A stretch of 38,300 bases of DNA from a bacterium (GTDB lineage: Bacteria; UBP14; UBA6098; B30-G16), in the NCBI GenBank assembly GCA_021161555.1, contig JAGHAI010000163.1, positions 1 to 38,300 of the forward strand, in the 5' to 3' direction. This document shows, piece by piece, positions 1,731 through 32,245 of the stretch. How positions within the stretch are numbered: position 1 is the stretch's first letter; every line of letters begins with the position of its first letter. The notes under the pieces were generated by a model that was given only the letters and a program-made list of their open reading frames with translations, was not told where the DNA came from and did not search any database. A program made the position numbers and the translations under genes.

Positions 1731-4700
1731 CTAATCACCCGATGCACCAGCAGGACTGTATATAGCAGAAGTGCGTAAAATACAATTTTCGAGGCTCATC
1801 ACCCAATATCCATATCCCGGCTGGAGCGTATTTGAGATGAAATACGCAGATGCAGTTGCATCATATCCGAACAGTGCGCCGGGCAACATAGCATCCGAAG
1901 GGACTGTGGTCTGCTCATCCCAATAGACAGTCTGCGAAGGAGCGCCAATCATACTCCAGCCAGCAGGCAGTTCTATTTCATAGTTGAGAAGCGGTTCGCC
2001 TGTCAAATCATAGCTGTGGTCGCCAAGCATCAACACCCAATAACCCCTGCCAGGATAAAGCACAGGAACAGGAACATAACTGGACGAAAGCGGGTCGTAG
2101 TAATACGCCGGCGGAAGAGCATCGGGAATGACATCGCCAAGGACAAAACTATCCGCATCAAACGGAATCGATATCATATTCCATCCGCTCTTCAAATGAA
2201 TCGTGAACTGGAACGGCGAAAGGTTGTGATAATATATGTACACCGTATCCCCCGCCGATACATATAGATAAGAAACTTCCTTCATATCAAGAGTATCCCC
2301 CACAAAACAGCCGCTCCAAACGCGATTGACATCCCAGACGAGCATTCCATCGTCATCTATAACAAGCGGGAAGACCATAAGTGTATCGTCGTAATATCTC
2401 AAATCTCTGGCGAGCTGATAGCCATTGTCAGACAGGAAATATATGTTTCCTTCGCCGGGGAAAGTGGGCGGGTCAAGCATATCGACGACGGGGTCGTAGT
2501 CGTTCGTCGCAAGAGGATGAACTCCGAAATAAGCAGAATCAGCCCTGCTCTCATCGGGGAGAACGAGAACTATCATAGCAGACCAGTATGGAGTAATCTG
2601 GTCTCCGACCAGAAGAATGCCGTCGCTTGTATATGGATATGGAAATCCGGAATTGACGCTCACATCCGAAAATGCCAACTGCGTAATAGCACCGTCCATC
2701 GCGTCGCCATCAATCTGATATTGTATATTTACAATCTCTCCCGAAAGAGGCAGCGGTTCAAAGCCGTGAGCGTGCACGGTGATATGGTCTTCGCCAATCG
2801 ACGATACATCGACGGTCCAGGTTCCCGGCAGCACAGCGCCAGCAGAAGCACCTGTCGGCATCGCCACATCGGGGTCGCTGTATATAGTGAAATTCAGCGA
2901 TGTGATGTCATTATCGTAAAGCTCTCCAACGGAAACGGGTATGTTCACAAGTGAACCTGCAGAGCCGTAGGAAGCGGAGGGAAGCGAAATTTCAAGATGA
3001 TTTTCGGGTTCGAGCGGCGTTATGTGAAGAATTACTTCAACCTGCTGAACGGGATTTTCCGGGTCGGTGGTGTATATGTTCACATATCCAACATAATCTC
3101 CAGGTTCCATATCGGCGTGTACGGTGAGGGTGAGTTCCTGCGTAGTTGCGGGGAACAAAAATTCGGATGTGGGCGAAGCATCAATCCAATCGGGCAGACC
3201 GGAAATGGAGAAATAGCCCGTTCCTTCGCCGAGATTTTGAACATTAACGATAGCCTGCGTCTCCAATCCCTGCTCGAGAGTGAACTCATAACTCGCCGGG
3301 GAAACCATAATCGAAGGAACGCCACCAGGCATACCGACAATCATTCTTCCATAGGAGACGGGGACGAGTTCTTCCGATGTCGCCATCCACCTGAAAATGG
3401 GTCCTGTGGAATTCTCACACAAAAGCATCACGGCAGATGAATCGCCGGGCAAAACTCCGAAATGCGCATCGTCGCCGAGCGGAATGGAAAATTCGAGATA
3501 AGCAGAAATTCCATCCACCCGCCAGACGGATGTAGCCTCCGAAAATTCCACAGGTGTGCCAGGAACAGCCACGCCGCCTATGCTCGCAACAGGCTGGAAA
3601 TATGCCCTGACACTATCACCATAACGGAAGAATATTCTGCCCTCGTCGGAAGGCATAACATCCCAGAAGCCCGAATTATCGTCGTCGAACCAGAGGGAAA
3701 ATTCCTCATCATCAGCGGCGAAATCGGAAAATTGAATATATCCATAAAGCCTGCTCGCCGTGTTGACGAACCCGAGTGTATATCCATAAGGAATTTGTAG
3801 CGTCGTGGCAAGGTCCCACGCGGCATCGTCATCATATCCATCCACAATAACAGGCTCACTCGACCAGGCAGAATAAATCCTTTCGGATTCAGAATTGCAC
3901 ATACCCGCATCCGTGTTGGAATAGGCGCTCACAAAATCTGGAACATCATAAACAGCCTTAACGCGATAATATTTCGTCACTCCGCAGGATACAAGCCCGT
4001 CATTATATGTATTAACATCGCTTGTTCCAATCATAGTTGGCTCTTCATCGGGGTCGTCGCCACGATAGACACGATATCCCACAAGATGCACAGGGAAACC
4101 GAGTTCAATCGCCAGGGGAATGTCCCAGGTCAGCGGTATGGAACCCACAAAATCAGAATGCGCTTCGAGATTTCTCGGCGCAAAAACGCTGTCCGTCAAC
4201 TTATACACTCGCACTGGAAAACCGAGATATGTGGTGTCCTGTCCATCTGTGATGCCGACGGTGACATCGTAATGTCCTTCCGTCGGCGGAGGAGACCACG
4301 ACAAATTGCCATCGGCAAAAAGGTTCATCCCCGATGGTCCTTCCGAGAGGAAAAACCAGAATGAATCCTCGTCGGCATCTGCACCGGTGAAAATATATGT
4401 ATAATCGATGCCGGGAATGGCAACGGAATCGGGAATTCCACAGGTGAAATATGGCGCATCATTGACGGAAACAACATCTATAGCCACCGTATCGGCAATC
4501 AGATATCCTTCGTGTTCAGCATAGATAATCACATAGGTGCTTCCCCACCAGTTTTCCTGAAGGTGAACCCACAACTGGCTGCTGTCTTCCTCGCCTGGAA
4601 GATAATACAAATCCAGTCCGTCGCCGCCTTCGGCAAAGAGATTCAGCCCCGCAGGAAGAAATACATCCGCCATATCGACGAGCATAAAGTCAGGCGCATC

Positions 4701-9800: not shown

Positions 9801-12800
9801 GTTGAATTAAATCCCAATCGTAGCTGTCCACATCGTAAACGGCAAGCCTAAAACCAATCCAGCTGCCGAGCCCGGGAAGGTTTATGTCTTCCAGCTCATC
9901 GCCGATTGGAATTGCGAGTTCGTAGGACACAAATCCCGCTTCATCGGAAGCAGCTCCCATCAAACCTTCATAGGTCCCGCGAACATCGCGGGTAATTCCA
10001 TCGGGATAAATTCCCCAGATGCCCTGATAGGTCGTTTCAATCCCACCTTCCACTGCCTTAACACGATATTCACCTTCATCGCTTGGGCTGCCGCTGGGCC
10101 ATCTATTGTTATTATTATCGTCGATGCTGACCATAAGCATATCGTTGGCCGTAAGCGCATCGTCGGCAATGTTTTCAACACCAATGTATAGATATCCATT
10201 GGTATGCTTGAAGTGCACCTTTATCGAATCATTGCCCATAACATAGGTCATAGCATCAGCCCATTCGCCGGCATTGATAACGCCATCAATTATCGGCGCA
10301 GCGGAGAAGGAGAAATTGGAATACCAGCTCGTAAGTTCACCCTCGATGCTGAACGCATTGTCTATGTTGGATTGAGCGCTCGTGCCGACTTCATAAACCG
10401 CGACAACATAATAGTAATAAATTTGATATGCATCTACATCGAGGTCGATGAAGTTGGGGACATAGGTTTCTCCAATCATAGTCCAATCGCCAATTTCAGG
10501 GTCGGGGTTTGTCGCACGCCAGACTTCGTATCCGACAAATGTCGTCGGCATCGTGTGGAAAACATCGAAAGCGGCGGGCGCAGTCCAAACAAGAGGTATC
10601 ATCCCCACATATCCGCCTTCCGCATCGAGGTCCACTGGCGCAAAAACGGCGTGAGATATCGGATATACCCACAATGTATATTCCAGCTCCGCCTCATCGA
10701 AGCCATCGGAGACGGATATAACGACATCGTAGGTCTCGAGAGTATCGATTTCAGGCACCTCCCATACAATCGTTCCATCGTCCAAAATGCGCATTCCATC
10801 AGGACCTTCGATGACCTCATATCCGAGGACATCGTCGTCGAGGTCAGTTGCGGGAATTGTTGCCATATATTCGCCCCCGCCGACGGCAAAAGTATCTATG
10901 AATTCTCCAATTTCGGGAACGGAATTCAATATCTGAACGGTGTCGAAGTCGGAAACATATTCCCCCTCTACAAAGCCATCGGAAAGACGAACTTCCACAA
11001 CCCAGGTATCGAAATGAGAAGTGAGGTCAGAACTTATAGTGGCATCGTTCCCGACGAATTCATAATTGCGCCACCACAGATATTGCACCAGGACATCGTC
11101 GCCGTCGGGGTCGTTATAGTCGAGGGCAACGGAAAGGTCATCGTCAGTATATGGATTTTCTGGAACGATGCCAAAATCGGTTATAACTGGCAGCGCATTG
11201 CCAATCGTAATCGTGGCGGATGTGAGAACGGTTTCATCTTCGCCATCCGAAATTGTAACCTGAACAAAGACATCATTTCCTCTGTCAAAATATTCGCCAT
11301 CAATGTGGTCCGTAGTGGGGTCAAGTCCCAGCGGTGAACCATTTACAAACCACTCATAAGTGTAAGTAAGTTCATCTTCATCAGGGTCTCCGGGATTGAT
11401 TATTGCGGCAGTGAGCGTTGACAGTTCCGTAGGTCCGCCCAGAGGAGCAACGAGAATATCCACATAATCAGCATAGGGCGGAGAATTGACAATGGTCACA
11501 GTCGCTGTATTTACAGGAGCTCCATCGCTGTAAGCATCGTGAGGGGTAATTTCGCAGTAAACTTCGTCGCCTTTGTCAAAATAGTCTCCGTCAAGCGTCG
11601 CTGCCGTGGCACCGTCAACCACTTCGTCATTGACATACCACTGATATGTAAATGTCACATCGTCGCCGTCATCGTCGTGCCAGGAAATTACAGAAGCAGT
11701 GAGAACATCGAGCTCCGTTGCAGTTGGTTCAGGCGAAATCGCAACTTCATCCACCACAGGCGGAGTGTTCGTCATATCGGGACCATCGATGTATTCTTCC
11801 ATTCCTATGGCGACATCTCCGCGGTCATCCATCGCAGAAAACCTGAATTGATGCTCACCCCACACAAGAGTGGTGGCATAATAATATGTGGCACCATCAA
11901 TATAGTTAGTGTCGGTGGGATTGACAGGCAACATATTGTAGTTAACCCCGTCAATATCCACAAGAACATACCCTGGTTGATAATTTCTCGCATTCGTATA
12001 TATCACATAATATGTGAAATCAGTCGTCAGCGGATGACCACTCGTGGGTTCGACATATCCATCGGAAAGAACAGGACCACCAATAGTAAATTCAAGTTCC
12101 GCAAATTCGCCGTCCACTTCACCGTCATTCGGGGTAACTCGCAGCGTCCAGATATCGCCAGTGGTCGTCAGGTCGTTTGTCAAAACCTCCGCAGTGCTTA
12201 TGAGTTCCCCGTCTCTATACCACTCATAAGAATAGGTAATGTCGTCTCCATCCACATCGAAGGACGGCGCCGTGATAACTACTCCAATATCTTCAAAGTC
12301 AAACGGATTTTCAGGGAAAATGGCGATTTCCGGCGCTTCTGGCGCCGTATTCTGGATGAAAATGTGGTCGCTTTCCACAGCATCGCCGTAATCCCAGCCA
12401 TCATAAGGCGTAACTTCGCACCAGACCTCGTCGCCTTTGTCAAAGTAATCACCGTTAAGCGTATTTGTGGTCACGCCAACCGAAGAACCGTTGACGAACC
12501 AATTGTATTCGTATGTAATTACATCGCCTTCGCCGTCAGTTGCAGTTCCAGGCGTGCAGGTGATTATCGAAGTTTCTACGGCAGGGTCAGGAGATGCCGA
12601 AAGAGAAGCACTCAGAAGAACAGGCGGATGGTTGAGAACGGAAAATTCAAAAGTATCGCTCCACGCGGGGAGTCCCAGCGCATCTTCGCAGTAGAAATAG
12701 AATATATGGTATCCGCGCGTAATTGTGGCGCCCGTCAGCTGAGCGAAGAAGTCTGCACCATCGATGTAAAAATTATCGCCAGGGTCAACGGCAGAAGCAT

Positions 12801-14220: not shown

Positions 14221-17200
14221 TTATTTCACGAGAACCATCTTCGAGTTTGCGGAGAATGTTCCCGCCTTGATGCGGCAGAAATACAAACCACCAGGAAGTT
14301 CGTGTCCGTTATCGCTCTTTCCATCCCAGCGGATTGAATACTTTCCAGCGTCGAGCTTTTCGGAAACGAGCGTTGCAACCTTCTTCCCGTTTCCGTCGAA
14401 GATGGAGAGTTCCACATCGCACTTTTCTGCGATATCGAACTTTATTTCGGTTGTCGGATTGAACGGGTTAGGCGATGCGCCGTAGAGCACGAACTTCTGC
14501 GGCTTCACCACATCCGCAAGATGGAACTTCCCGAGATGCTGAGCAAGTCCGTCGTCGAGGGTGACCTTCGTGCGAACGATGTTGTCATCGGTGTAGAGCT
14601 CGAGAACATATTCATCGCCCACATTCCACTCGATATCGCCAACCTGCACCCAGAACTTGCCATCGGAAACGGCGCAGCCTGGGTCTTCATCTGTCAGAAG
14701 AACTTCGCCGTCCTTCGAGATGAGTTTGAAGTGCACCGATTCCCAATCGCCGTCGATATCGCCCACAACCATCTTCGGCATCGGAAGAAGGTCATCCACA
14801 CCTTCGCCAGGACGCATAGTATTGTGGAGAACGCCGCTCTTCGTCGTAGGCCAGCTGCCAGGATTGTCCGCCCAGGCAAGATATGTCTGTCCAGGATAGA
14901 CGGAGAAATTGCCGTAGTATGTATGACTGGATTCGAAGTAAACGAGCATCTGCCATCCGCCGCCGGGAATACGACAGGCGACAGTGGGACAGCCCAGAAC
15001 TCCATCGATGTTTTCCTTAAGCGATATAGCATCGGTAAATCCGAGTGCATCGAGCGGGAGGAAGAACTGGTTCCATCCGTGGACAAACGCCCACACAGGT
15101 GCAGGAAGCAGGTCACCGGCCACAGAGAGCGTGGCATTGCCTGTGCCATACACCAGAAGCGCATCCGCTCCCTCATCGATGCTAAATATGTCAATGCCAG
15201 CGGTATAAATCGCAACCCAGCTGCCACTGCCATATCTCCACATATCGGTAATTCCTGCACCAGCAAGATACGCATCGAGTTCAGAAGGTTCAAGCGGTTC
15301 GGAACCAACTTCAACATCGAAAGGCACAGCCATCTGCGCATAACCGGTGGCGAACTGATAGCTCGTGCGACCAACTCGCTCGGAAATATCACTATTGTTG
15401 CCGTCGTGGTCATAGGCGACTACATAATAATATGTAGGCTGCGTAATCGGGTCAACAGGGAGCGGGTCGTCATACCAGGGGACATCGGTCACATCGAGGA
15501 ATGTGTATGTTCCGATGTCATAGGGGTCGCCCACGCTCTTATACACATAGTACAGAATGTTATTTGCAGGGTCAAGTTCCGGCGCAGAGAATATCGTATC
15601 ATCTCCGCAGATGAATGTATCAACACCATAAGCGACTTCATCCCACCACAGGTGAGCATAACTGCCGACCTGCTGAATTTGAAGGTCGAGAACAGCCGCC
15701 GGCGGAATGTCATCAACTGGCGTAGCAGGACCTGCAATAATTCTGTCGGAAAATATAGTATCGACATTCACGCCCTTAGTCTCGTAGCTGATAATGATGC
15801 TGTATTCATACGAATTAAATGTTCCAAGATTGTCGATGAGATAGAACAATGTATCGCCAATCTCAAACTGGAAGAACGGGAATATCTGCACCCAGTTTGT
15901 ATCAGCAGGGTTGGGGCTCAAATCCATATCGCGCCAGAAGGTATATCCGAGGACATAGAGCGTTGTGGTATCGATGTCCCCACCTTCATACAGGAGGTCG
16001 TTCTTGCTTCTGGTGTAAACAAACCAGAGCGAATCTCCCTGGTCGCATTCGTGGTCATACACATCGAAGTAAATATCCGCATCAGGCTGCGAGAGGACAT
16101 CGAACGGGTCAGAAGTTCCGGGTGAATAGCCCGAAGTGGGCGCATCGGCGTGAAGCAGCAGCCCGAGCATAGGACAGTTCGCCGTCACCATAATAGTATC
16201 GCATCCGTAGGTCAGATAATACGGATAAGCTGGCAGGTCGATGCACAGTGGGTCGCTGTATGTGGAACTGAACTCAATTCCATAGGAGAATGTCTCATTC
16301 GTGTCGCCAGGCGAATGAAGTGCCGTCACGACCACAGGGAAAGGTTCACCCACATACGCCGGAACATCAAGCGGCTCAATTGTGAGATATCCCGTTATTG
16401 CAATAATCGTGAAGTTATAGTAATAAACCGTGACATTGCCAAAGCTGTCCCATGCCCTCAACTGAACATTATATGTTCCGTTCTGGAGGACAATCCTCGG
16501 CAGATAGAACTGCCACAATGTTCCAGGACCTGGATTCATATGCACCCAGCTGAATGTGGTGCTCCAGGAAGTGCCATCCCACCAGTGAGGCATTCCATCG
16601 AATAAGAACTGAATGGCAATTTTCACACTATCGATATCATTGGAACTGCCACAACAACAAGGATTGGTGTCTTCAACAGAAACCCACAGAGTATCCCACC
16701 ATTCATCCAGATGTTCTATCATCTGACCATCATACGGGCGAGTGGCTTCAATATGCTCGGGTCCTGTGTTATCGTATGCAAATGACCAGGTATTGTATAT
16801 CGTCTGGTTCGATGTATTGAATCCGGTTCCCGCCTCATAATTCTGAAGGTCATCCACAGCACGAGCAAATACAGTATAGCAGCCATTTTCCTCGGGCCAC
16901 CAGTAATAATCCCACCATAATGTGTCCACGATGTGAAGGCTGAAACCAGGGAAGAACTCGCCCATCGTGTCAGGAATTGCTACCCCGCCAGTCCACCAGT
17001 CGCTATATACTATATGCGGCTGGAACCACTGCGGCGTCGTCAGAGTGAAATCTCCAACGATGTCATCCCACCATAAAGTATCAGGAATTGTATCACCACA
17101 GGAATCGTATTCCATTTTTGCAATGGCAAGACGAACATCGTCGATAGCTGTAATCGTGTCTATTACATAACCAGCAATGTCATCTCCCATATAATTGGAC

Positions 17201-20200
17201 CACAGAGTATCATTGAAGAATGTGAATACCGGCGGCGTATCTGTCAACGAAGAGTCTGTTATATAACTATGCGGCGCCTGACAGTCGAGGACAAAGTATG
17301 TCGTATCGGTTGGTCCGTCGAAATTGAGAACACTGTCATCCGCAAATGTCCACAGGCGGAAGATATAAGAAGGTGCAGGTGGTGTATAGCCGGAGAACTC
17401 CCACATCTCTCCGCCAATATATGTCATTTCATTCCATATCCAGCTGGGGGAAATAACCCAGGTGTCGGTTCCTGCATTCCACCACCTATCGCGAACAGTG
17501 TCTTCAATTCCAATATACACCTTTCTAATACCGGCAACATTATACACACCATTCAGAGTATCCCACGCGTGAACCCGAATTACGCCATCCCACTGAGAAC
17601 AATTGTAAAATGTATCATTCGGCGGTGCAATAATAACAGCTCTCGGGTCGGCGGAATCGTATATGAAGCGAAGCGTATCGTAATCGCTTCCGTTTCCAGC
17701 TACATCTGAACAGCGAGCAACAACCATATATTCACCGTCGAACATCAGGCTATCCACAATGGGCAGGTCAATTGCAAATGTATCGCCGGCGATGTAGTCG
17801 GTGATAAGCCATATAGGAGCAGTCTGCCAGTCTCCGCCGTTCCAATAATTCTCGTGCGGGTCAATTATCTGGCACTCAACGGAATTTTTAACCACACCGG
17901 AGAAATTATCGGTAGCCAGCACAAACGAACTATCGGGGAATATGCCTGCATTGAACCTGTTCCCTTCAACAGGATAATATACATCGACTACAGGAAGAAT
18001 TACATCAATGCCCAAACCAAATGGCAGGAACTTTGAAATAGTATCAAACTCAGCAGAAATAAATATAGAATCGCCATAAGCATTCGTGTCGGAGAATAGC
18101 CAGGCAACAGGATATGTCTGCGAAGGCCAATCTTTATCGTGGAAATAAAGCGTATCCACGATATATCCCACATATCCTTCGTAAACTGACGATACACCAT
18201 CCCAGTATATCATATACATATTTAGCGAATCCTGGCAGGGATACAGAGTATCGGGACGAAGCACAGGGACATCAAGCCCAACAAGTCCAGCGCCAATATC
18301 AGACCATAGCGGGTCGAAAATTGCAAGCGGCATAGGATAAACATCGAGACTATCAGCAGTGGCTCTGCCTCTACCAGGACAGGAAGAACAAAGATTCATA
18401 TAGGCAACATTTATGATAACAGTATCCCAGCTGTTTATCCAATATCTGCCGGTATATGTGTCCTGATATCCCGATATCGTCGCATCGGTTATGTCGAGTT
18501 CTGGCGGTTCGAGAACGCTCGCATAATCCAGCGTGTCATCGAAATTGACCTGGTCCCATAAGAGTAATAAATTCACCATATCGAAGTCCCAGTTGTCCCA
18601 ATCGACCCATTCGATACCAGATATGAACATATCTTCCATACTTCTGCCGTTGCATGCACCCACATCGAGGGTATCGCCGAGATATTCAAAAGGAACATCG
18701 ACACACCAGAATGTAGTATCGTTGTAATTTATGGCAGTAGCGAAATCCGCCTGGGTGAGTATTTTAAATGTATCCGATGTAGCCTGACACTTAATCAGGG
18801 CGCCATTTCTCACGACAACCTTCATCGAATCGACATCGTCCTCTCCCCAATAGCAAACCCGCACCCACAGGGTAAAGTCCTGTCCTTGAGTTACGAGATT
18901 GGTGTCTTCCTCGGCGGTCGGGTCATCCGGCACAATTTTCACCGGCGCATCAGTAAGTGTGTCAATCCAGGTATCGCGGATAATCACCATAACAGGAGTT
19001 TCCACTTCAACAACGGCATCGTTATCAGTTATCTGCTGACCGATAACCTGCCCCGCAGGACCAGGGTCTGCGGAAACAAGATTAGCACAAAGCGAATCGC
19101 GGAAGTCAAACCAGGATTCAATAACTTCAAAGTAAACCCACACATGCCCGCCAGCTGGTAAAGTGGCTATGGTATATTCATCATAGCCAAAATTCCAGAA
19201 CCCACTACCCAGATACCTTATCTCTGTATTGGGCGAAGAAGACTTAAACCCAATAACAACATTCGTTATATCGAATGTGTTGGGGTTATATATATGAACA
19301 GAACACAAATGTGCTTGCTCCCAATCTGCCTGCCAGACTTCACCAGGAACGAGCTGCTTTGGAAGGTCGGAGAGAACATCGTAAATGTTTATATAAGCCA
19401 CAGTCCCTCGGGGAAGAATTATATCATCGCTGACATTTCCAGCGGAATCAATTGCCCAGAACACCATATAACAATTTCCGGTGGGTTCGTCTATGGCATC
19501 TTCAGAAATCCACTGATCGAGAGTATCCCATTCAAAACCAAGTTCCGTATATGCTCCAACCCAGGCGCTACCATCCCACCATTGAGTATATGAGGAATTA
19601 GTTATATATCCAATTACAGTATCTATTTTTGAGAAATTATCCGTCGCCATAACTTTGATATGATTATCCGCAGGCCAGGGGTCGCCAGAACCCACAGGAG
19701 CAACCATAGAAATAACCGGGTTTGTAATATCAATAGCAAGCGAATGTGGAATTAAAGCGTCAAGCGGACTTGTGGACGCTTCTGCTGCATCGCCGTCATT
19801 GAAGTCGTGGAAATGACTCGTGAATTCCACATCGGCGGTATCCTCCTCAGAGGTATGCTCGTCCCAAAGCCAGAAATCAAACACAGCGGTATCTCCAGGA
19901 GCAATTGCATCTATAGTTGATCCAAAGGACGGGTCAGTAATATCAAGTGGAACATCGGCTCCGCCAATACCAGTAATTTCGCTTGACCAGAACTGGAGGA
20001 AAGATTCATTCTCCCACAAGGAATCAGCAACGGCATAATCACCTGTATCAGAATAAACATAGATATAGTAATCCATACCTCCCCAGGAATTATTCAGCCA
20101 GGGCACCAAATCTGCGGTCGTTCCCCATGCCCAATAATCCCAGCCTATCACACTGAGAGAAGGCGGCATCACAATGCCAATTGAATCGTCGTCATCCATA

Positions 20201-22272
20201 TATGTGACGCCTGCCGCTCCAATAATATTCAAATCTGTCGCCGAACCGACAACTGTAAAGATTTCGTCATCAGTTCCACCGGTGGCACCGTGATTGGTGG
20301 GGTCAGCGGTAATTGGAAGATAATAAGTAGCCGAAACACCGCTTGCGAGAGTGTCGGGGAACACATACGGATTGCTCAAAACAGAAGAACAACCATATAC
20401 ACTGCTGCTGGAAATGTTAAATGTAATATCATAAAGCGGCGCATCGCCGTTGTTGGTCACCTCCACGGCGAGCCAGAAATTTTGCCCTTCGGTGAAAAAC
20501 GGCTCATTATATCCAACGCCCATCGTGTCAGCAACAGCATACACATCGTCCAGTGTGAGGTCGGCAGGAGAATCCACTTCAATCAAAAGGTCATTATCGA
20601 CTAAAGTCCATCCAGCAGTGTGAGGACCCGTCAATGTGACGAATAAGGAATCGTCAGCGGGAGTCGCCACACACATCGGCTCGTTAATGTTAAATACTAT
20701 TATTGCCGTATCGCCAGGAGACATATCGGGAAGCGGGTTCCACACGAGCGGAGCAGGTCCGCCGAAGCAGTCAACTCTGTTCACCCAGAGAGTATCGCTG
20801 TTGTTGGCAATTGTGTGATAAGCAATGACAGTCACGGTAATATTGTGGTTCTGCCCGCGATTTGCATAATAGTCATAAGGAAGACCATCACCCACACGGG
20901 GCAAATCGGACACGATGTCGAAAATTTCCAGACGAGGAATTTGAAGCATAGAATATCCTGCAAGACCATTTGTAGCAGGAATATTCCGCAAATTTGGATT
21001 ATGGACAAACCTTCCCGCAGAATCAGCCCACGCCTTCACAACTGCGCTGTCAGCCATATCTCTAATCCAATCGGCGCAAGTATCCGCCTCGTCAAAATCA
21101 AAAGGAAGCACAAAATCGTGATACTCCTTAAGTGCCAGTATCGACAGAAATGCGTCAAAATATCGAGCAGTTATTGGGAAATATCTTGTTCCTGAATGTG
21201 CGTTATCCGCAAAATCCTTGATGTTATTGAAAAATCCCCAGGGCGTTCCATCATTATCGGGACCGGCATCGATAATGTAGGTATTGAAAACCGTATTGGC
21301 ATTTACTGTGTCGCTGGTGAGCGAATATGCCATTAGAAAGGCAAGTGCTTCATAATTTTCCTGTCCTTCGGTAACATTCTTTTCGCCCATATAATTGTCC
21401 CGGAGATAATCCATTCCACTAGTATGCAGATAAGCAACAGCCTTGTTTAAATAAGATTGATAATAAGTAAAGTCAGGTGCAACATAACCCGTATCCCCCG
21501 TATCTACAAGCGCAACTCTCATAAGCGAAGTAGTCGTTCTAATCGTTCCATATACCTGATTATATTTTGCGAGCAGAGTTACCCACAGAGCCGTCAGATA
21601 AGGGGATGGTGCTCCACCCTGCAAAATGCTGTCAGTTGGGTCATAATATGGGCTCGCCACAATCCCCGCTATGATGGAATCGAGTTCATCCTGATAGAAT
21701 GGGTCGCCGGTGAAAACGAGAAATATCGCGTCCCAGAGCATCCATTCCAGCGAAACCTCACCGGTATCGGTGGGCCAATGGTCAGCAACAATATTTCTGT
21801 TCCAGAACGACGCATCGGGAACAATAAGTCCCGTGGGCAGGTCAAAGTTTCCATTATTAAAGGAAACATCGTGGCTCCACCAGGGCTCAATTCCACCACC
21901 AGCAGCGGGCTCATCGAGTGTATCGCCGGCATCTTCGCGGCTGTGAAAGACATAGTTCACAGCAAGATGCCCGAGGTCAATATTCACGCCCGTCTTGCTT
22001 TCGCCGAGAATTACCACAGCAGTATTGTAGAAGAAGCTACCTTTATAATTTGTAGTTGGATTGTTCAATCTCGGCGCATCCGTTGTAGAACCCCATCCAT
22101 TAACCCACAAAAGACCTGTGCTTTGGTCAACAAGACCAACCGATGCATCAGTGGTCGGCGTGCTGGGGTCTGTGACATATTGGACCGCCTTAATCCCATA
22201 ATCTTCCCAGAATCCACCATAGGCAGCTCCAATAACAAGAGCAACTAACATCACAAAAGCCCACCTTCTCAT
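14221..22272 (-). CDS. Giant secreted protein with helical N-terminal region, Ig-like repeats and FlgD/T9SS-like C-terminal domain (2683 aa)
   Basis: Signal peptide MRRWAFVMLVALVIGAAYGG; repeated 'WW(D/N)G..W' Ig-like units; C-terminus YGASPNPFNPTTEIKFDIAEKCDVELSIFDGNGKKVATLV...LPGGLYFCRIKAGTFSANSKMVLVK. Confidence 0.85.
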   Translation of the reverse strand: MRRWAFVMLVALVIGAAYGGFWEDYGIKAVQYVTDPSTPTTDASVGLVDQSTGLLWVNGWGSTTDAPRLNNPTTNYKGSFFYNTAVVILGESKTGVNIDLGHLAVNYVFHSREDAGDTLDEPAAGGGIEPWWSHDVSFNNGNFDLPTGLIVPDASFWNRNIVADHWPTDTGEVSLEWMLWDAIFLVFTGDPFYQDELDSIIAGIVASPYYDPTDSILQGGAPSPYLTALWVTLLAKYNQVYGTIRTTTSLMRVALVDTGDTGYVAPDFTYYQSYLNKAVAYLHTSGMDYLRDNYMGEKNVTEGQENYEALAFLMAYSLTSDTVNANTVFNTYIIDAGPDNDGTPWGFFNNIKDFADNAHSGTRYFPITARYFDAFLSILALKEYHDFVLPFDFDEADTCADWIRDMADSAVVKAWADSAGRFVHNPNLRNIPATNGLAGYSMLQIPRLEIFDIVSDLPRVGDGLPYDYYANRGQNHNITVTVIAYHTIANNSDTLWVNRVDCFGGPAPLVWNPLPDMSPGDTAIIVFNINEPMCVATPADDSLFVTLTGPHTAGWTLVDNDLLIEVDSPADLTLDDVYAVADTMGVGYNEPFFTEGQNFWLAVEVTNNGDAPLYDITFNISSSSVYGCSSVLSNPYVFPDTLASGVSATYYLPITADPTNHGATGGTDDEIFTVVGSATDLNIIGAAGVTYMDDDDSIGIVMPPSLSVIGWDYWAWGTTADLVPWLNNSWGGMDYYIYVYSDTGDYAVADSLWENESFLQFWSSEITGIGGADVPLDITDPSFGSTIDAIAPGDTAVFDFWLWDEHTSEEDTADVEFTSHFHDFNDGDAAEASTSPLDALIPHSLAIDITNPVISMVAPVGSGDPWPADNHIKVMATDNFSKIDTVIGYITNSSYTQWWDGSAWVGAYTELGFEWDTLDQWISEDAIDEPTGNCYMVFWAIDSAGNVSDDIILPRGTVAYINIYDVLSDLPKQLVPGEVWQADWEQAHLCSVHIYNPNTFDITNVVIGFKSSSPNTEIRYLGSGFWNFGYDEYTIATLPAGGHVWVYFEVIESWFDFRDSLCANLVSADPGPAGQVIGQQITDNDAVVEVETPVMVIIRDTWIDTLTDAPVKIVPDDPTAEEDTNLVTQGQDFTLWVRVCYWGEDDVDSMKVVVRNGALIKCQATSDTFKILTQADFATAINYNDTTFWCVDVPFEYLGDTLDVGACNGRSMEDMFISGIEWVDWDNWDFDMVNLLLLWDQVNFDDTLDYASVLEPPELDITDATISGYQDTYTGRYWINSWDTVIINVAYMNLCSSCPGRGRATADSLDVYPMPLAIFDPLWSDIGAGLVGLDVPVLRPDTLYPCQDSLNMYMIYWDGVSSVYEGYVGYIVDTLYFHDKDWPSQTYPVAWLFSDTNAYGDSIFISAEFDTISKFLPFGLGIDVILPVVDVYYPVEGNRFNAGIFPDSSFVLATDNFSGVVKNSVECQIIDPHENYWNGGDWQTAPIWLITDYIAGDTFAIDLPIVDSLMFDGEYMVVARCSDVAGNGSDYDTLRFIYDSADPRAVIIAPPNDTFYNCSQWDGVIRVHAWDTLNGVYNVAGIRKVYIGIEDTVRDRWWNAGTDTWVISPSWIWNEMTYIGGEMWEFSGYTPPAPSYIFRLWTFADDSVLNFDGPTDTTYFVLDCQAPHSYITDSSLTDTPPVFTFFNDTLWSNYMGDDIAGYVIDTITAIDDVRLAIAKMEYDSCGDTIPDTLWWDDIVGDFTLTTPQWFQPHIVYSDWWTGGVAIPDTMGEFFPGFSLHIVDTLWWDYYWWPEENGCYTVFARAVDDLQNYEAGTGFNTSNQTIYNTWSFAYDNTGPEHIEATRPYDGQMIEHLDEWWDTLWVSVEDTNPCCCGSSNDIDSVKIAIQFLFDGMPHWWDGTSWSTTFSWVHMNPGPGTLWQFYLPRIVLQNGTYNVQLRAWDSFGNVTVYYYNFTIIAITGYLTIEPLDVPAYVGEPFPVVVTALHSPGDTNETFSYGIEFSSTYSDPLCIDLPAYPYYLTYGCDTIMVTANCPMLGLLLHADAPTSGYSPGTSDPFDVLSQPDADIYFDVYDHECDQGDSLWFVYTRSKNDLLYEGGDIDTTTLYVLGYTFWRDMDLSPNPADTNWVQIFPFFQFEIGDTLFYLIDNLGTFNSYEYSIIISYETKGVNVDTIFSDRIIAGPATPVDDIPPAAVLDLQIQQVGSYAHLWWDEVAYGVDTFICGDDTIFSAPELDPANNILYYVYKSVGDPYDIGTYTFLDVTDVPWYDDPLPVDPITQPTYYYVVAYDHDGNNSDISERVGRTSYQFATGYAQMAVPFDVEVGSEPLEPSELDAYLAGAGITDMWRYGSGSWVAIYTAGIDIFSIDEGADALLVYGTGNATLSVAGDLLPAPVWAFVHGWNQFFLPLDALGFTDAISLKENIDGVLGCPTVACRIPGGGWQMLVYFESSHTYYGNFSVYPGQTYLAWADNPGSWPTTKSGVLHNTMRPGEGVDDLLPMPKMVVGDIDGDWESVHFKLISKDGEVLLTDEDPGCAVSDGKFWVQVGDIEWNVGDEYVLELYTDDNIVRTKVTLDDGLAQHLGKFHLADVVKPQKFVLYGASPNPFNPTTEIKFDIAEKCDVELSIFDGNGKKVATLVSEKLDAGKYSIRWDGKSDNGHELPGGLYFCRIKAGTFSANSKMVLVK

Positions 22273-23745: not shown

Positions 23746-26700
23746 ATGCGTCTAAAAACATCAATTCTTATGCTCTTTTCACTTTGGGTCTGCATTTCAT
23801 CGGCGGAAACGATGCTTTCTGCCATCGATGCAGAATACAGGGCAGGGCAAATCACCCTCGACGAGGCGATGCTTTTCAAGGCATATTCCGTTTTTGACCA
23901 CGAGAAACTGCCACCTCGTTTTCGCAGTCTCGAACCACCACGATGTGGAACTCCAGCAATCGTGGAAATCAGGAGAAACTGGGACGAACTTTCGCAATCC
24001 ACGCAAAATGCACTTGCAAGAATTATGGCCCGGCCCACTGGATTGCCTCTGACATACAACACAACGCACTTCAAAATGCACTACACACTCACAGGAAGCG
24101 ATGCCGTGCCAAACGAATCCTATGTCCACACGATGGCGGATAAGTTCGAGGACGCATACACTTTTGAAACGGTGACTCTTGGATATTACACTCCGCCATC
24201 GGACGGAACAGCGGGCGGAGATTCGCGATACGATGTTTACATATTTTCTCTCTCCCCCGGCGTTATGGGATACACATCTCCCGAAGTTGCAGGACCACAG
24301 CCGTGGAACGACGCCACAAGTTATATCGCTATGAGGAACAACTATACGGGATACGGTCCCACGACGGAAATGATCGAAGTCACTTCTGTGCACGAGTTTT
24401 TCCACGCAGTTCAATTCGCCTACGACTACAGCGAACAACCCTGGTATATGGAAGTCTCGTCTGTCTGGATAGAGGATGAGATGTATCCCACCTACGATGA
24501 AGAACAATATTATCTCCCCGTATTTTTCAACAATCCCGAAGTAAGCATAACCACTTACGACGGCTCACACGAATATGGCTCGTATCACTGGAACACATAT
24601 CTTTCAGAGACATACGGCGACAGCATTGTGAAGATGATATGGCTGGAAAACCGATATTCGAGCTGCATATCATCCTTTCAGACTGTTCTTTCGAGCTTCG
24701 GAACGACGAGAAGCGCTGCATTTGGCGAATTCTTTGCCTGGAACTACTTCACCGGCAGCAGAAATCTTCCAGGATTATATCCCGAAGGCGCAGATTACCC
24801 CCTAATTCATATAGAAAGAACTCACACCACCTATCCTGCAAATGGCTCATCCACACACAATCCCGAAAATTTTGCGAGCAATTACATAGTCTTCAACATC
24901 CCAGGTGGCGCGTCGGGACCTTTCACCGTTACATTCGACGGGGAAGACGGAAGAAGCTGGTGGGCGCAGGTTATCATTCCCGGTGCAACAACATATACAT
25001 CGCATCACATCCCGCTGAACTCGTATAATTACGGAGTTGTGAGCATAGATTCTGCCGAGTGGGCGGGACATTCTTCTATAATTCTCGTGGTCGGCAATAT
25101 CTCCACATCCGGCGGCGCTGCAACATATTCCTATCACGCAGACTTTGAGGAAGTGGGTCCTTCTTACAACCCGCCGCGAAATTTAACCGCAGAAAGTGGA
25201 CATTCCGGCTCAGTTCCTCTCGATTGGGACCCACCAATAGGCGGTGGAACCAGCGGAACTGAAGAACTCTATTACGACGACGGAACTCCATCTCCTTATT
25301 ACATTCCTCGGGACCTCGGCGAAATAGGATACCCGGAATATGGGAACATCATATATGAGGGCGTAAAGTTCAACGCCACATCCGACTGCACACTGAAACA
25401 GGTTATAGTTTACTTTGCTGGAACAGGCGCAAATGTTGAATTTAAGGTATCGCAGGACAACAGCGGCGTTCCGGGAACCGATTTGACCGGTTCACCCTTC
25501 AACGCGCCAGTATCCACATCCGGATGGGACACGATAACAGTTCCCGGCGGTGGAATTCCCGTTCCTGCTGGAGATTTCTGGGTGGGATATACCAGAACAT
25601 CGGACGACCTATACTGCACATTTGACGCAGAAACAACTCTCGGGATGCCTTCGCTGTTCATATCAGATTCCGGCTATGCCTTCAACAACACTGGCGGCGA
25701 TTACCTTCTCCGTGCGGTCATCACCACAGGTTCCGGGGGAGGCATAACTGTTACAGGATACAAAATTTACCGCGGCACAACGCCAGGAGGACCTTATTCA
25801 TATATCGGGACAAGCGGAACAGAATCATACAGCGACGGCTCCGTAACGGATGGAACATCCTACTACTATGTCGTCACCGCAACATACAGCGACGCAGGGG
25901 AAAGCGGATATTCCAACGAAGCGATGGCGGTTCCCGGAACTGGTTCTGGCACGGGTGGAGATACTCTTCGCCACGACGACGGTTCTGCTGAATACATCCT
26001 GACGGGAACTTCTCTGGGTGAGAAATACGCCGTCGTATTCGAACCGACTGGTCCCTGTCAACTGTTATCCGTGCGATATTTCGTCGATGGAACACCATAT
26101 TTAAATTATTTCCAGGTCGGTATCCACAGATGGACGGGAACGAGAATTACCGGAAATTACATCGAACCGTTTCCATACTGGGTTGACCCCGACGCAAACG
26201 GATGGACAAATGTTGACCTATCCCCTTATGAAATCTACATTCCCGGCGATTTCGCCGTGGCATATATAGTGAACGATACATCGACGCACATCGGGATTGA
26301 CGATATTGACGACGACTATTCCTGGGTGTATGACCCTTCGTCCGACAACTGGTATGACCTTTCATATACGTTGTTCATTCAAGCTGTCGTTCGTTATCTT
26401 GAGACGGGAGAGACACACACGCTTTATGGAACTGTGAATTTATCTGCGGGCAGTGGTGGTTCGCCGCCGCCGAGCGATTTGTCGGGAAGCATCGTCCGAG
26501 TTGTTGAAACCGGCGACCTGGACACAACGGATACGAGCGGATATTACGAAGTTGACAGCTTGCCGGCAGGTGTTTATACAGTCGAAGCGTGGCATCCGGG
26601 ATACGAATCGCAGCAGCAGACGATAGGAATGACCGACGATGTCGAGCAGAACTTTTCCCTTGTGCCTTTCAATACGCCGCTCAATCCTCTGCGGGCTTTC

Positions 26701-29127
26701 AGCGCCACGAACTATCTCGACGGTGCAGTTCTTCTCCGATGGATGCCACCACTGGGATTTCCTGGAACTGTTGAAGAAATATCTTACTATGACCGTTCAG
26801 CGACAAGCCTCTGGTTCTATCCCGACCTCGGACGGGGCGATATATTCGACACGCGGTTCGAAATCTGGTTCCCCTGCACCGTGCAGACGATAGCATTTGA
26901 ATGCTACGATTCCACCGGTGGATATCCAGATGTTTCGGTTCACTTCTGGCTCGACGACGGCGAAGGATATCCCGACCTCGAAAATGAACTGATAGATTCG
27001 GTAATCATTTCCCCGACGGGGTATCCTTCCTGGGATACGCTCAATATGGAAGGAAGCGGTCTGGTTCTGTGGCCCGGGCAGGTTCTTCATATGGGCGTTC
27101 GTCTTCTCGCTTCACAGCCGTCAATTCTTTCGACGGACACACTCCCGCATTATTCTCCTCCGCTGTGCCGTCTGTATTCTGAATCTGCTGGTTCGTGGCA
27201 AAATCTCGGCGAACTTATGGTGGCGATGATAGTGAAATACTTTGCGGGAACTGCGAGACTCTCTCCCGTTGCGAACCCGCCGGAAGTGGCAAAATTTTAT
27301 GCTTCGATGGAAAATGTTGCGCCAGCGATTAAACTGACAGACCATCCTCTTCGGCGCGCAATGTCTCCGATGGCTGCGGAAGGATTGCAGGAATACTTAA
27401 TATATCGCGCAGATTCAAGAAGCGGACCATATTCCCTGGTGGGAACCGTCGATGATGTGGATTCAATGTATTTTATCGACAGCACAGTGACCAACGAAAA
27501 CATATATTATTACTACGGTGTGGCGTCCTATGACCACGGATATTCCGACCCGAGCGACACCGTTGCCGCTTTTCCGCTTGCGTTCAACGACACCGCCTGG
27601 GTGCTTTTCGTCGATGACGATGCAAGTTGCTACAATTCGGGATTTGACGACGAAGGAATTGCCATAGCACAGATACTTCTCGACATCGGCGTTCCCTTCA
27701 ACGCGATAGACCTCGACCCGCTGTATTACATTTCGGACGATGCACTTTCGGGATATCAAGCTGTGATATGGAACTGCGGTGCGGTATTTTCCAATGGCTG
27801 GACGCTCGCAGACAGCGAGGAAGCGAACATCGGGCGCTATCTCGATAGTGGCGGCAAATTTGCGCTGTTCGCTCAGGATTATCTGTGGGATATATATGCC
27901 GGCGCATCGGTATTTTCCACAGGAACATTTGTTTATGACTATCTCGGGCTGGGAAGCGCAACGCAGGACTACTGGACAATAACCGGCACAAGCACTGGAA
28001 CGCTGGAAGGCTATGGTTTCGCCGATGGGCTTTCGTATTCCGTGGAAAATCCGTTTGAAAACGGAAATTTATACTGGGATAAATTCAATGTATTCTCTGG
28101 CGACACGCTCCTCTACTTCGACTATGGGGATAGTTCGGGCATCATCGGGACACAATACGACGGCGATGGGTTTAAGAGCGTGTTTGTGGCTTCTTCGCCG
28201 TTTGCGATGGTCGATGGAACTGCGCCAAACACGGTGGAAGAGTTTTTCCGCAGAATGCTCTATGATTATTTCGATGTTCATTCCGCGCCGTCGTCGGACA
28301 CGGTTGTGGTCACATATAATTTGTCGGCGGGCTGGCATATGCTCTCCGTTCCCGTGCAGATGAGCGATAACTCCGCCGCCTCAGTATTCCCCGGAAACTA
28401 CGGCGTATATACCTACGACCCCACAGCGGGTTCCTATGTCGCTGTTTCTACTGCTGAGCCTGGCATCGGATATTTTGTCCTGTTCCTGACCGATGTGACC
28501 TTCGATTTGACAGGGGAGCCTGTGGAGACTCTGAATGTAGATTTCAACGGCGGATGGAATATGATTGGCGTTCCGTGGACGGCGTCCGGCACGATTTCGT
28601 TCAGCGAAGCAAGTTATGAACCCGATATGCTTTTGCCGGGAACCTACTACGGCTACGACGCTTCCGCTGCGTCTTATTTCATTCCGTCCACAGCGGAAGT
28701 GAAGAGCGGATATTGGGTCGCGCTTCTCGGCGACTGCACACTTCATTTCCCTGGCAGTTCGCTTATGAAATCGTCTGTTCCCGAAATGACTTCCGACGCG
28801 TATAAATTGATTTCCGAAGGTCCGCCACCGCCGCCGTCAAAGGCGATTCCGAAAGGCATCGAAATATCTTCGCCAAAGCCAAATCCGTTCAACAGCAGTT
28901 GCGAAATTGACATTTATCTACCCGACGAAGAAAAGATTTATGTCGAAGTTAGAGACATCCTCGGGCGGACAATTTCCCTCGAAGAAAGGATACTATCTGG
29001 GGGGCGGCATTCAATAAAGTGGGACGGCAAAAATATTTCTGGTGCTGCTGTGCCTTCGGGAATTTACTTTATCTCGGTGAAATGCGGCGGCAGAAATATA
29101 ACAAAAGATGTTCTTCTAATAAGATAA
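23746..29127 (+). CDS. Secreted MXAN_6640-like metalloprotease, multidomain, with FlgD/T9SS-like C-terminal domain (1793 aa)
   Basis: Signal peptide; zinc motif HEFFHAVQFAYD...WYMEVSSVWIEDEMYP; FN3 domains with insertions; carboxypeptidase-regulatory-like domain; GATase-like domain; GWHMLSVP module; C-terminus SSPKPNPFNSSCEIDIYLP...VPSGIYFISVKCGGRNITKDVLLIR. SD GAGGAGGG before ATG. Confidence 0.85.
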   Translation: MRLKTSILMLFSLWVCISSAETMLSAIDAEYRAGQITLDEAMLFKAYSVFDHEKLPPRFRSLEPPRCGTPAIVEIRRNWDELSQSTQNALARIMARPTGLPLTYNTTHFKMHYTLTGSDAVPNESYVHTMADKFEDAYTFETVTLGYYTPPSDGTAGGDSRYDVYIFSLSPGVMGYTSPEVAGPQPWNDATSYIAMRNNYTGYGPTTEMIEVTSVHEFFHAVQFAYDYSEQPWYMEVSSVWIEDEMYPTYDEEQYYLPVFFNNPEVSITTYDGSHEYGSYHWNTYLSETYGDSIVKMIWLENRYSSCISSFQTVLSSFGTTRSAAFGEFFAWNYFTGSRNLPGLYPEGADYPLIHIERTHTTYPANGSSTHNPENFASNYIVFNIPGGASGPFTVTFDGEDGRSWWAQVIIPGATTYTSHHIPLNSYNYGVVSIDSAEWAGHSSIILVVGNISTSGGAATYSYHADFEEVGPSYNPPRNLTAESGHSGSVPLDWDPPIGGGTSGTEELYYDDGTPSPYYIPRDLGEIGYPEYGNIIYEGVKFNATSDCTLKQVIVYFAGTGANVEFKVSQDNSGVPGTDLTGSPFNAPVSTSGWDTITVPGGGIPVPAGDFWVGYTRTSDDLYCTFDAETTLGMPSLFISDSGYAFNNTGGDYLLRAVITTGSGGGITVTGYKIYRGTTPGGPYSYIGTSGTESYSDGSVTDGTSYYYVVTATYSDAGESGYSNEAMAVPGTGSGTGGDTLRHDDGSAEYILTGTSLGEKYAVVFEPTGPCQLLSVRYFVDGTPYLNYFQVGIHRWTGTRITGNYIEPFPYWVDPDANGWTNVDLSPYEIYIPGDFAVAYIVNDTSTHIGIDDIDDDYSWVYDPSSDNWYDLSYTLFIQAVVRYLETGETHTLYGTVNLSAGSGGSPPPSDLSGSIVRVVETGDLDTTDTSGYYEVDSLPAGVYTVEAWHPGYESQQQTIGMTDDVEQNFSLVPFNTPLNPLRAFSATNYLDGAVLLRWMPPLGFPGTVEEISYYDRSATSLWFYPDLGRGDIFDTRFEIWFPCTVQTIAFECYDSTGGYPDVSVHFWLDDGEGYPDLENELIDSVIISPTGYPSWDTLNMEGSGLVLWPGQVLHMGVRLLASQPSILSTDTLPHYSPPLCRLYSESAGSWQNLGELMVAMIVKYFAGTARLSPVANPPEVAKFYASMENVAPAIKLTDHPLRRAMSPMAAEGLQEYLIYRADSRSGPYSLVGTVDDVDSMYFIDSTVTNENIYYYYGVASYDHGYSDPSDTVAAFPLAFNDTAWVLFVDDDASCYNSGFDDEGIAIAQILLDIGVPFNAIDLDPLYYISDDALSGYQAVIWNCGAVFSNGWTLADSEEANIGRYLDSGGKFALFAQDYLWDIYAGASVFSTGTFVYDYLGLGSATQDYWTITGTSTGTLEGYGFADGLSYSVENPFENGNLYWDKFNVFSGDTLLYFDYGDSSGIIGTQYDGDGFKSVFVASSPFAMVDGTAPNTVEEFFRRMLYDYFDVHSAPSSDTVVVTYNLSAGWHMLSVPVQMSDNSAASVFPGNYGVYTYDPTAGSYVAVSTAEPGIGYFVLFLTDVTFDLTGEPVETLNVDFNGGWNMIGVPWTASGTISFSEASYEPDMLLPGTYYGYDASAASYFIPSTAEVKSGYWVALLGDCTLHFPGSSLMKSSVPEMTSDAYKLISEGPPPPPSKAIPKGIEISSPKPNPFNSSCEIDIYLPDEEKIYVEVRDILGRTISLEERILSGGRHSIKWDGKNISGAAVPSGIYFISVKCGGRNITKDVLLIR
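25170..25935 (+). other. FN3 domain interrupted by an inserted beta-sandwich-like domain (first instance)
   Basis: PPRNLTAESGHSGSVPLDWDPP...[YYDDGTPSPYYIP...LLRAVITTG]...TVTGYKIYRGTTPGGPYSYIGTSGTESYSDGSVTDGTSYYYVVTATYSDAGESGYSNEAMAVP. Confidence 0.55.
26412..26670 (+). other. Carboxypeptidase regulatory-like domain in the metalloprotease
   Basis: HTLYGTVNLSAGSG...SDLSGSIVRVVETGDLDTTDTSGYYEVDSLPAGVYTVEAWHPGYESQQQTIGM. Confidence 0.65.
26682..27585 (+). other. FN3 domain interrupted by an inserted beta-sandwich-like domain (second instance)
   Basis: NPLRAFSATNYLDGAVLLRWMPPLGFPG...[YYDRSATSLWFYPDLGRG...MVAMIVKYF]...LQEYLIYRADSRSGPYSLVGTVDDVDSMYFIDSTVTNENIYYYYGVASYDHGYSDPS. Confidence 0.55.
28310..28755 (+). 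repeat. Duplicated 'GWNMIS' C-terminal module, copy in the metalloprotease
   Basis: YNLSAGWHMLSVPVQM...YTYDPTAGSYVAVSTAEPGIGYFVLFLTDVTFDLTGEPVETLNVDFNGGWNMIGVPW...YYGYDASAASYFIPSTAEVKSGYWVALLGDCTLHF. Confidence 0.7.
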
Positions 29128-30769: not shown

Positions 30770-32245
30770 ATGTCTGTGATAATTCTTACGATAGCAATAA
30801 TTTCTTTGTCCTTCGCTCAGCCGCCCGACATAGACCCGCGATACCACACTATTGATGAAGTTTTTTCCGAAGTGAATGCACTGGCGGATACATACGAAAA
30901 CATCTGCTATGTGGAGACACTCGGGTATTCAGAAACATACTCCATTCCAATCATTGCGGTGAAACTATCTCGATATGCACAATACGATATGGACAGAAGC
31001 GTGGTTTTAATAGACGGCGGACAGCACGCAAACGAACCATCTGGAACGGAGACAATTATGTGGATGCTTCATTATCTGACTTCGCATTATGCCACAGATG
31101 ACGATGTCTTCCGCTGGCTCGATTCACTGCAAATCTGGTTCATTCCAATCGTCAATATGGACGGCAGACAAATTGTGATGAACGAGAGTTCGCCTCACTC
31201 AATTCACTGGCGAAAGACGACCAGGGACAACAACGAAAACGGCGAATTTGACTTCGATTACGACGGCGTTGACCCAAACAGGAACTACGAATATAAATGG
31301 GACGAATGCACCGATACGAACTGGTCTTCTCCGAACTACAAAGGACCATATCCGTGGTCGGAAAATTGTGTCGTTGTGGTGCGCGATTTCATAGAAAGAT
31401 ACCGACCGACGGCGATAATTGACCTGCATTCTCCGGATTCCGTCGGCGGAAACAAGTTGTGGTTCTGCTGGTGGGACGAGGATGCAGGAACATACCACAA
31501 CGAAGGATTTCCTCACTATTACTTCGTCGCATCCGAACTGGCGAACAACACAGAAACGGAAGTTGACGACGAACATTATCAATACAGAGCGGCATACAAC
31601 ACGAAGCCAAAACTTCAATTGTGGTCATACTGGCTGACGAGTTCCTGTTCCATAATTATGGAAATAACGAATCAATGCTTCTGGACGGGGGACACCGTCG
31701 ATACGATTGCCGCCCGCGTCGGAAGGGGGCTTTTCTACATATTCGACAGAATGTTTGAGAAGGGATTGATTGTGAAGGCATACGACGGAACGGATTTTCC
31801 CGCGCAGGCAGAGGTCATCATCGACGGCGTTACGGACACCACTTTCCCGCCAAGATTGTGCAACTATCACGGAAGATACCACCGCTTTCTCGAACCTGGA
31901 ACTTATACTGTTCGTGTGAAATACGGTGACGAAGAAATTGTCTTCGACACGGTTTCAGTGGAATCGGGGCACAACACATACATCGAAGCGCACTTTGCAG
32001 AAATTGCCGAAGAACCATTCGACAGAGACGAGGACGGCATAATAGCCCAGCGCGGCAATTACATATTCGTCGATGCGGAAAACGGCGAATTTAGATTATA
32101 CGATATACTCGGCAATGTCGTCATCGAAGATAGGGTGAGCGAGGACAAAATCATTTCGACGGCAGGATTACCTGCAGGTGTATATCTCGCAAGACTTTCA
32201 TCAAAAAGTGGAAGCGTAGAAAAAAGGATACTAATACTGAAATGA
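30770..32245 (+). CDS. Secreted M14-family zinc carboxypeptidase with C-terminal sorting-like domain
   Basis: Zn ligands HANEPSGTE and DLHS; VDPNRNYEYKWDE; catalytic-Glu-like SCSIIMEITNQCFW; C-terminus EFRLYDILGNVVIEDRV...LPAGVYLARLSSKSGSVEKRILILK. Confidence 0.9.
   Translation: MSVIILTIAIISLSFAQPPDIDPRYHTIDEVFSEVNALADTYENICYVETLGYSETYSIPIIAVKLSRYAQYDMDRSVVLIDGGQHANEPSGTETIMWMLHYLTSHYATDDDVFRWLDSLQIWFIPIVNMDGRQIVMNESSPHSIHWRKTTRDNNENGEFDFDYDGVDPNRNYEYKWDECTDTNWSSPNYKGPYPWSENCVVVVRDFIERYRPTAIIDLHSPDSVGGNKLWFCWWDEDAGTYHNEGFPHYYFVASELANNTETEVDDEHYQYRAAYNTKPKLQLWSYWLTSSCSIIMEITNQCFWTGDTVDTIAARVGRGLFYIFDRMFEKGLIVKAYDGTDFPAQAEVIIDGVTDTTFPPRLCNYHGRYHRFLEPGTYTVRVKYGDEEIVFDTVSVESGHNTYIEAHFAEIAEEPFDRDEDGIIAQRGNYIFVDAENGEFRLYDILGNVVIEDRVSEDKIISTAGLPAGVYLARLSSKSGSVEKRILILK

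Follow-up and report, generated by a model that had tools for sequence, protein, structure and literature searches.

Probable nesting of an uncurated beta-rich domain within FN3 domains of a large secreted-type bacterial metalloprotease

The metalloprotease and its neighboring ORFs

The window, meaning the whole 38,300-nt stretch of DNA that was analyzed, contains an ORF at 23746..29127 (+) encoding a large secreted-type bacterial protein of 1793 aa. From the N-terminus, its domain order is an inferred signal peptide, an MXAN_6640-type metalloprotease, an FN3 domain with an insert (FN3(insert)), a free-standing copy of the insert domain, CarboxypepD_reg, a second FN3(insert), a Rossmann-like region, GWN repeats, and a sorting tail. 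The putative metalloprotease domain (MXAN_6640_HExxH; 24076..24894 (+), aa 111-383) matched NCBIfam NF045524 at 197.3 bits (cutoff 140) and carries the HExxH motif as HEFFH at aa 216-220. CarboxypepD_reg (26509..26661 (+), aa 922-972) was recognized by Pfam PF13620 at 34.5 bits (cutoff 32.3), and the C-terminal Por_Secre_tail/FlgD_ig domain (28876..29124 (+), aa 1711-1793) by TIGR04183 and PF18962, the former, a T9SS type A sorting domain model, scoring 27.7 bits (cutoff 23). The region at aa 1283-1510 (27592-28275 (+)) has a Rossmann-type look (WVLFVDDDAS...SGYQAVIWNCG...GGKFALFAQD) and was without a match in the Pfam scan of the 1793-aa protein. GWN...LVSLPV-like repeats were also seen near the end of the protein, as in the 607-650 aa family described below.

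Three giant secreted-type ORFs lie next to each other on the minus strand (1731-6701, 6865-13311, and 14221-22272; 1656, 2148, and 2683 aa), and two of them end in FlgD_ig/T9SS-like tails. A cohesin domain was found above the Pfam cutoff in the second of these (6865-13311 (-)) and at a sub-threshold score in the first (1731-6701 (-)). Downstream of the metalloprotease, the product of the ORF at 30770-32245 (+) is a secreted Peptidase_M14 zinc carboxypeptidase ending in a T9SS-type tail, so that two putative extracellular peptidases stand side by side. Two unsplit FN3 domains of the same lineage, at 3891..4181 (-) and 10345..10641 (-) within neighboring ORFs, were used as controls, and both have a short B-C loop.

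Split FN3 domains and their inserts

All pieces of the two FN3(insert) modules are encoded on the plus strand, and the FN3 and insert segments quoted in an earlier sequence-only reading do lie where that reading had placed them. In module A, the N-terminal strands (25171..25236, aa 476-497) end in PLDWDPP and are homologous to the N-terminal part of FN3-B and to the unsplit FN3s; they are followed by insert A (25237..25740, aa 498-665; domain core aa 505-661) and by the C-terminal strands, which begin with TVTGYKIYRG (25741..25938, aa 666-731). Module B comprises N-terminal strands (26680..26772, aa 979-1009), insert B (26773..27249, aa 1010-1168), a variable linker from insert B to strand C (27250..27381, aa 1169-1212), and C-terminal strands (27382..27579, aa 1213-1278). 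Some orthologs, as well as split modules from another phylum, have a linker resembling aa 1169-1212. Comparison of the halves by hhalign, profile against profile, gave probabilities of 98.5% for the N halves of FN3-A and FN3-B and 99.2% for the C halves.

The position of the interruption was read from two unsplit paralogous proteases of the same class, L030 (G013, 752 aa, cut by the contig end) and L034 (G011, 846 aa), both of which have the domain order protease, beta domain, unsplit FN3, and free copy. BLAST matches of these proteins to the 1793-aa protein break off at aa ∼497 (PLDWDPP) and restart at aa ∼666 (TVTGYKIYRG), leaving a gap of 168 aa with the stop point at PP|IGGG; on the established FN3 fold, this falls after strand B (VPLxW) and before strand C (GYKIYR). 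When the halves of FN3-A were joined, they matched Pfam fn3 (PF00041) over positions 2-80 of 84 at 25.9 bits (cutoff 25), and the joined halves A of two orthologs scored 26.4 and 24.8 bits against the same cutoff of 25. No Pfam fn3 match was obtained for the C halves alone or for the joined halves B, and one unsplit FN3 of the window was likewise without a match. The Pfam scan of the natural, split sequence of the 1793-aa protein returned neither an FN3 nor a domain at either insert; with a second domain inside the B-C loop, profile searches miss both FN3 copies in the real protein. Only the C half of FN3-A gave a match in the PDB (3mpc, an Fn3-like protein, aa 669-723). Taken on sequence evidence, these results support a single split FN3 domain in place of separate pieces, with the insert as a distinct beta-rich domain within its B-C loop.

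The sequence-only reading had also proposed that the same type of insert occurs in both FN3s and, at ∼25955..26410, as an independent copy between them, and the free-standing copy was located at 25957..26403 (+) (aa 738-886). With profiles built from aligned orthologs out of the relatives of the genome, hhalign gave 99.85% (E 1e-30) for insert A against insert B, 98.7% (E 5e-16) for insert A against the free copy, and 95% (E 4e-8) for the free copy against insert B, bearing out the proposed kinship of the three. Insert B was the best match of profile A1 within its own genome. Chance similarity among the inserts was considered and rejected, as control comparisons of an insert with an FN3 half gave 0.2-0.3%. 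By these alignments, the three copies of ∼155 aa, two nested and one free, are homologous. Apart from one Cys and one Pro, no invariant catalytic-looking residues were found in the insert domain.

Distribution, history, and possible role of the nested domain

In an HMM survey, all 11 intact orthologs (11/11) carried two modules with the order N half, insert, C half; these orthologs span 1354-1943 aa (the shortest is cut by its contig) and come from four families of the class. A second secreted family of 607-650 aa has one split module and a free copy in 15 members, and the source genome itself carries a member of this family (G000:C55; L077:2539-4380 (+)). The proteins of this family (G000:C55; L078-L083, L048) were observed to consist of FN3(insert), a free copy, and then two GWN...LVSLPV repeats. 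Split modules also occur in proteins of two other phyla, where four loci (L134, L135, L136, and L138) were checked by eye, and the FN3(insert) arrangement has been retained across three or more bacterial phyla. The insert profile matched 34 of 290 genomes, including 17 outside the class; in one other phylum, a profile scan found the domain in 66 of 100 genomes. Free-standing copies were commoner than embedded ones, and a scan of genome contigs gave the sister genome as its sole match.

No Pfam family was matched above its cutoff by members of the insert family. Insert A matched choice-of-anchor R (NF041539) over positions 30-139 of 155 at 20.6 bits (E 3e-4; cutoff 30), and it was the only one of 30 insert-family members to match this model, below the cutoff. 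DUF4082 (PF13313) scored 13.6 bits (E 0.066), under its cutoff of 28.4, and 0 of 49 members matched the Pfam model of Lectin_like (PF18560; cutoff 27 bits). In profile comparisons, all inserts together gave 93% against the choice_anch_R set and 96% against a mixed Lectin_like/DUF4082 set, with far lower values for column-shuffled controls. PDB sequence searches made with the insert profiles yielded no credible match. For the free copy, AlphaFold built a beta-sandwich from few sequences (pLDDT 62), taken as a weak lead; its best Foldseek matches, all low-scoring, include discoidin, CBM32, and APC10-type folds. By profile comparison, the insert domain is a remote relative of choice-of-anchor R, DUF4082, and Lectin_like, and these distant relatives, together with the secreted protease context, suggest a ligand-binding role.

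Pairwise profile comparison placed inserts A and B and the insert of the 607-650 aa family mutually closest, and the free copies of the 1793-aa protein and of that family closest to each other. A tree built from 44 embedded and 55 free copies (99 in all) required five changes between the two states, against a mean of 33 after shuffling; it left a single clade of embedded copies unrejected (AU p 0.47), and in a class-only tree the topology constrained to one embedded clade scored better. By the grouping of clades, the free copy in the window belongs to a separate free-standing clade and is not sister to the two inserts of its own protein, a pattern that fits one old insertion with the module duplicated afterwards. 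The FN3 tree, with 91 columns and poorly resolved, marginally rejected a single clade of split FN3s (AU p 0.047). One insertion followed by module duplication is the simplest reading of these sequences, and repeated insertion or later loss could also have contributed.

The explanation that we favor, with a probability of roughly 0.7, is that the FN3s host a nested beta-sandwich domain of ∼155 aa in the B-C loop, that this arrangement goes back to one insertion with later duplication, and that the nested domain has a binding role. Within it, sequence comparison shows that the FN3 halves belong together, where the insert sits, that the three copies are homologous, and that the layout is conserved. 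A single old insertion would have entered the B-C loop of an ancestral FN3 that preceded a free-standing copy, and the whole FN3(insert) module would then have been duplicated, twice into the protease and also into the second secreted protein. The FN3 could work like a doubly tethered clamp: at the tip of a chain of secreted domains, it would hold the inner domain out to the side. That inner domain may bind a glycan or a protein of a surface, which would position the HExxH protease on its substrate. The two outcomes named in the sequence-only reading as contrary to it, non-homologous inserts and flanks forming separate domains, were both absent, and its split FN3 with a homologous loop insert was retained; its further idea of an insertion-prone site that was reused fared less well, since the embedded copies group together with the free copy apart.

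That idea, in which the B-C loop is prone to insertion and FN3-A and FN3-B were filled independently by the same domain family, is unlikely. The marginal rejection in the FN3 tree, the existence of unsplit paralogs, and the occurrence of split FN3s in other phyla and other proteins all agree with it, but that tree has few columns, the embedded copies are closer to one another than to any free copy and are compatible with one clade, and no other type of domain was seen in the loop among loci chosen by insert or FN3. A second alternative takes the inserts and the free copy as nothing more than spacers or stalk elements, which would make the secreted chain longer and bind nothing. It is possible, if doubtful: the large secreted proteins of the source genome are chains of beta domains and the scarcity of invariant catalytic-looking residues agrees with it, whereas nesting in a loop and two subfamilies kept across families and phyla are not needed for a spacer, and the distant relatives carry lectin-like names. 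Lastly, the pieces could be separate domains in a row, with the N-terminal strands completing the preceding domain and the C-terminal strands forming an incomplete FN3 or some other domain. The AlphaFold model of module A (pLDDT 44, from four sequences only) did not join the halves with confidence, which fits such a row, but exactly these halves are contiguous in L030 and L034 and Pfam fn3 recognizes them only when joined; the unsplit paralogs lead us to reject this reading as very improbable.

Candidate selenoproteins and comparison with known systems

In another phylum, a scan found many copies of the insert domain with in-frame TGA, and never with TAA or TAG. In total, 22 distinct copies have an in-frame UGA at one site, in five genomes (G298, G363, G369; G311, G324) that represent two families of that phylum (loci L213, L214, L215, L216, L217, L218, and L220-L226, also L209). 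The proteins are mostly ∼290 aa, with a signal peptide, the domain, and a T9SS-type tail, and several are in tandem; each has one or two in-frame UGAs between YDDG and VRFTP, and by eye 18 of the 22 copies show CxxU, UxxC, or UxxU. The GVRFTP codons form a bSECIS-like hairpin 21-30 bases downstream of the UGA with an invariant AGGUU loop. All six stem pairs are present in 18 of the 22 UGA copies and five in the other four, whereas not one of the 56 copies that lack a UGA has all six (mean 2.9). Three stem positions vary with compensation, and a change of GVRFTP to GARFAP alters both sides of the stem; folding z-scores of the 60-base stretches were modest (mean -1.2).

Each of these five genomes has a full tRNA-Sec gene (70-78 bits) and a SelB gene (367-373 bits), and both genes were also present in G357, G301, and G273. 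Neither was found in the genome of the window, where the best tRNA-Sec score was 43 bits and the best SelB score 183 bits for an EF-Tu-like protein, nor in G141, G302, G334, G344, G336, and G328. In searches of the UGA proteins against NCBIfam, the tail alone was recognized, and no such family appears in Table 1 of an inventory from 2026 that covers 119 prokaryotic selenoprotein families (PMC13188914). On these sequence features, the UGA-bearing copies very probably represent an undescribed family of small secreted selenoproteins. If this is confirmed, a secreted family that is not thioredoxin-like would join the known prokaryotic selenoproteins, and a lectin-like sandwich would have been the scaffold on which an extracellular redox center arose. 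One further copy, L227 (G273:C226), was excluded from the count as its UGA lies elsewhere in the domain; this single copy has the in-frame UGA at FNTUSGADVTC in a genome with tRNA-Sec and SelB, and could be a pseudogene or a further selenoprotein, or result from a sequencing error.

The 1793-aa protein shares its N-terminal domain with the MXAN_6640 putative metalloprotease family, but the NF045524 model spans the protease domain only, and in this class the two FN3(insert) modules come in addition. The host domain resembles FN3 (PF00041) in that joined halves A exceed the Pfam cutoff, and it differs from an ordinary FN3 in holding a whole second domain in the B-C loop. That loop is among those diversified by protein engineers in FN3 binders; in these natural proteins it holds a whole domain, and does so across several phyla. 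The guest has a strand pattern similar to those of Lectin_like and DUF4082, yet unlike them its family is uncurated in Pfam, and nesting in FN3 is absent from the choice-of-anchor R family description as far as seen. Because host and guest both score below cutoffs, standard profile scans miss FN3(insert). The result would be an uncurated family of secreted domains and a domain-in-domain design in which the FN3 B-C loop serves as a socket for a whole domain, and the unsplit paralogs L030 and L034 make the insertion directly testable. Literature searches turned up no published case of an FN3 host with this guest domain. In pilus adhesins, a von Willebrand A domain interrupts an Ig-like domain and is likewise doubly tethered in the loop of a beta-sandwich, but both the host fold and the guest fold are different from those of FN3(insert). 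Nested domains as such are known, and the new part is that the host is an FN3 and the guest family is uncurated.
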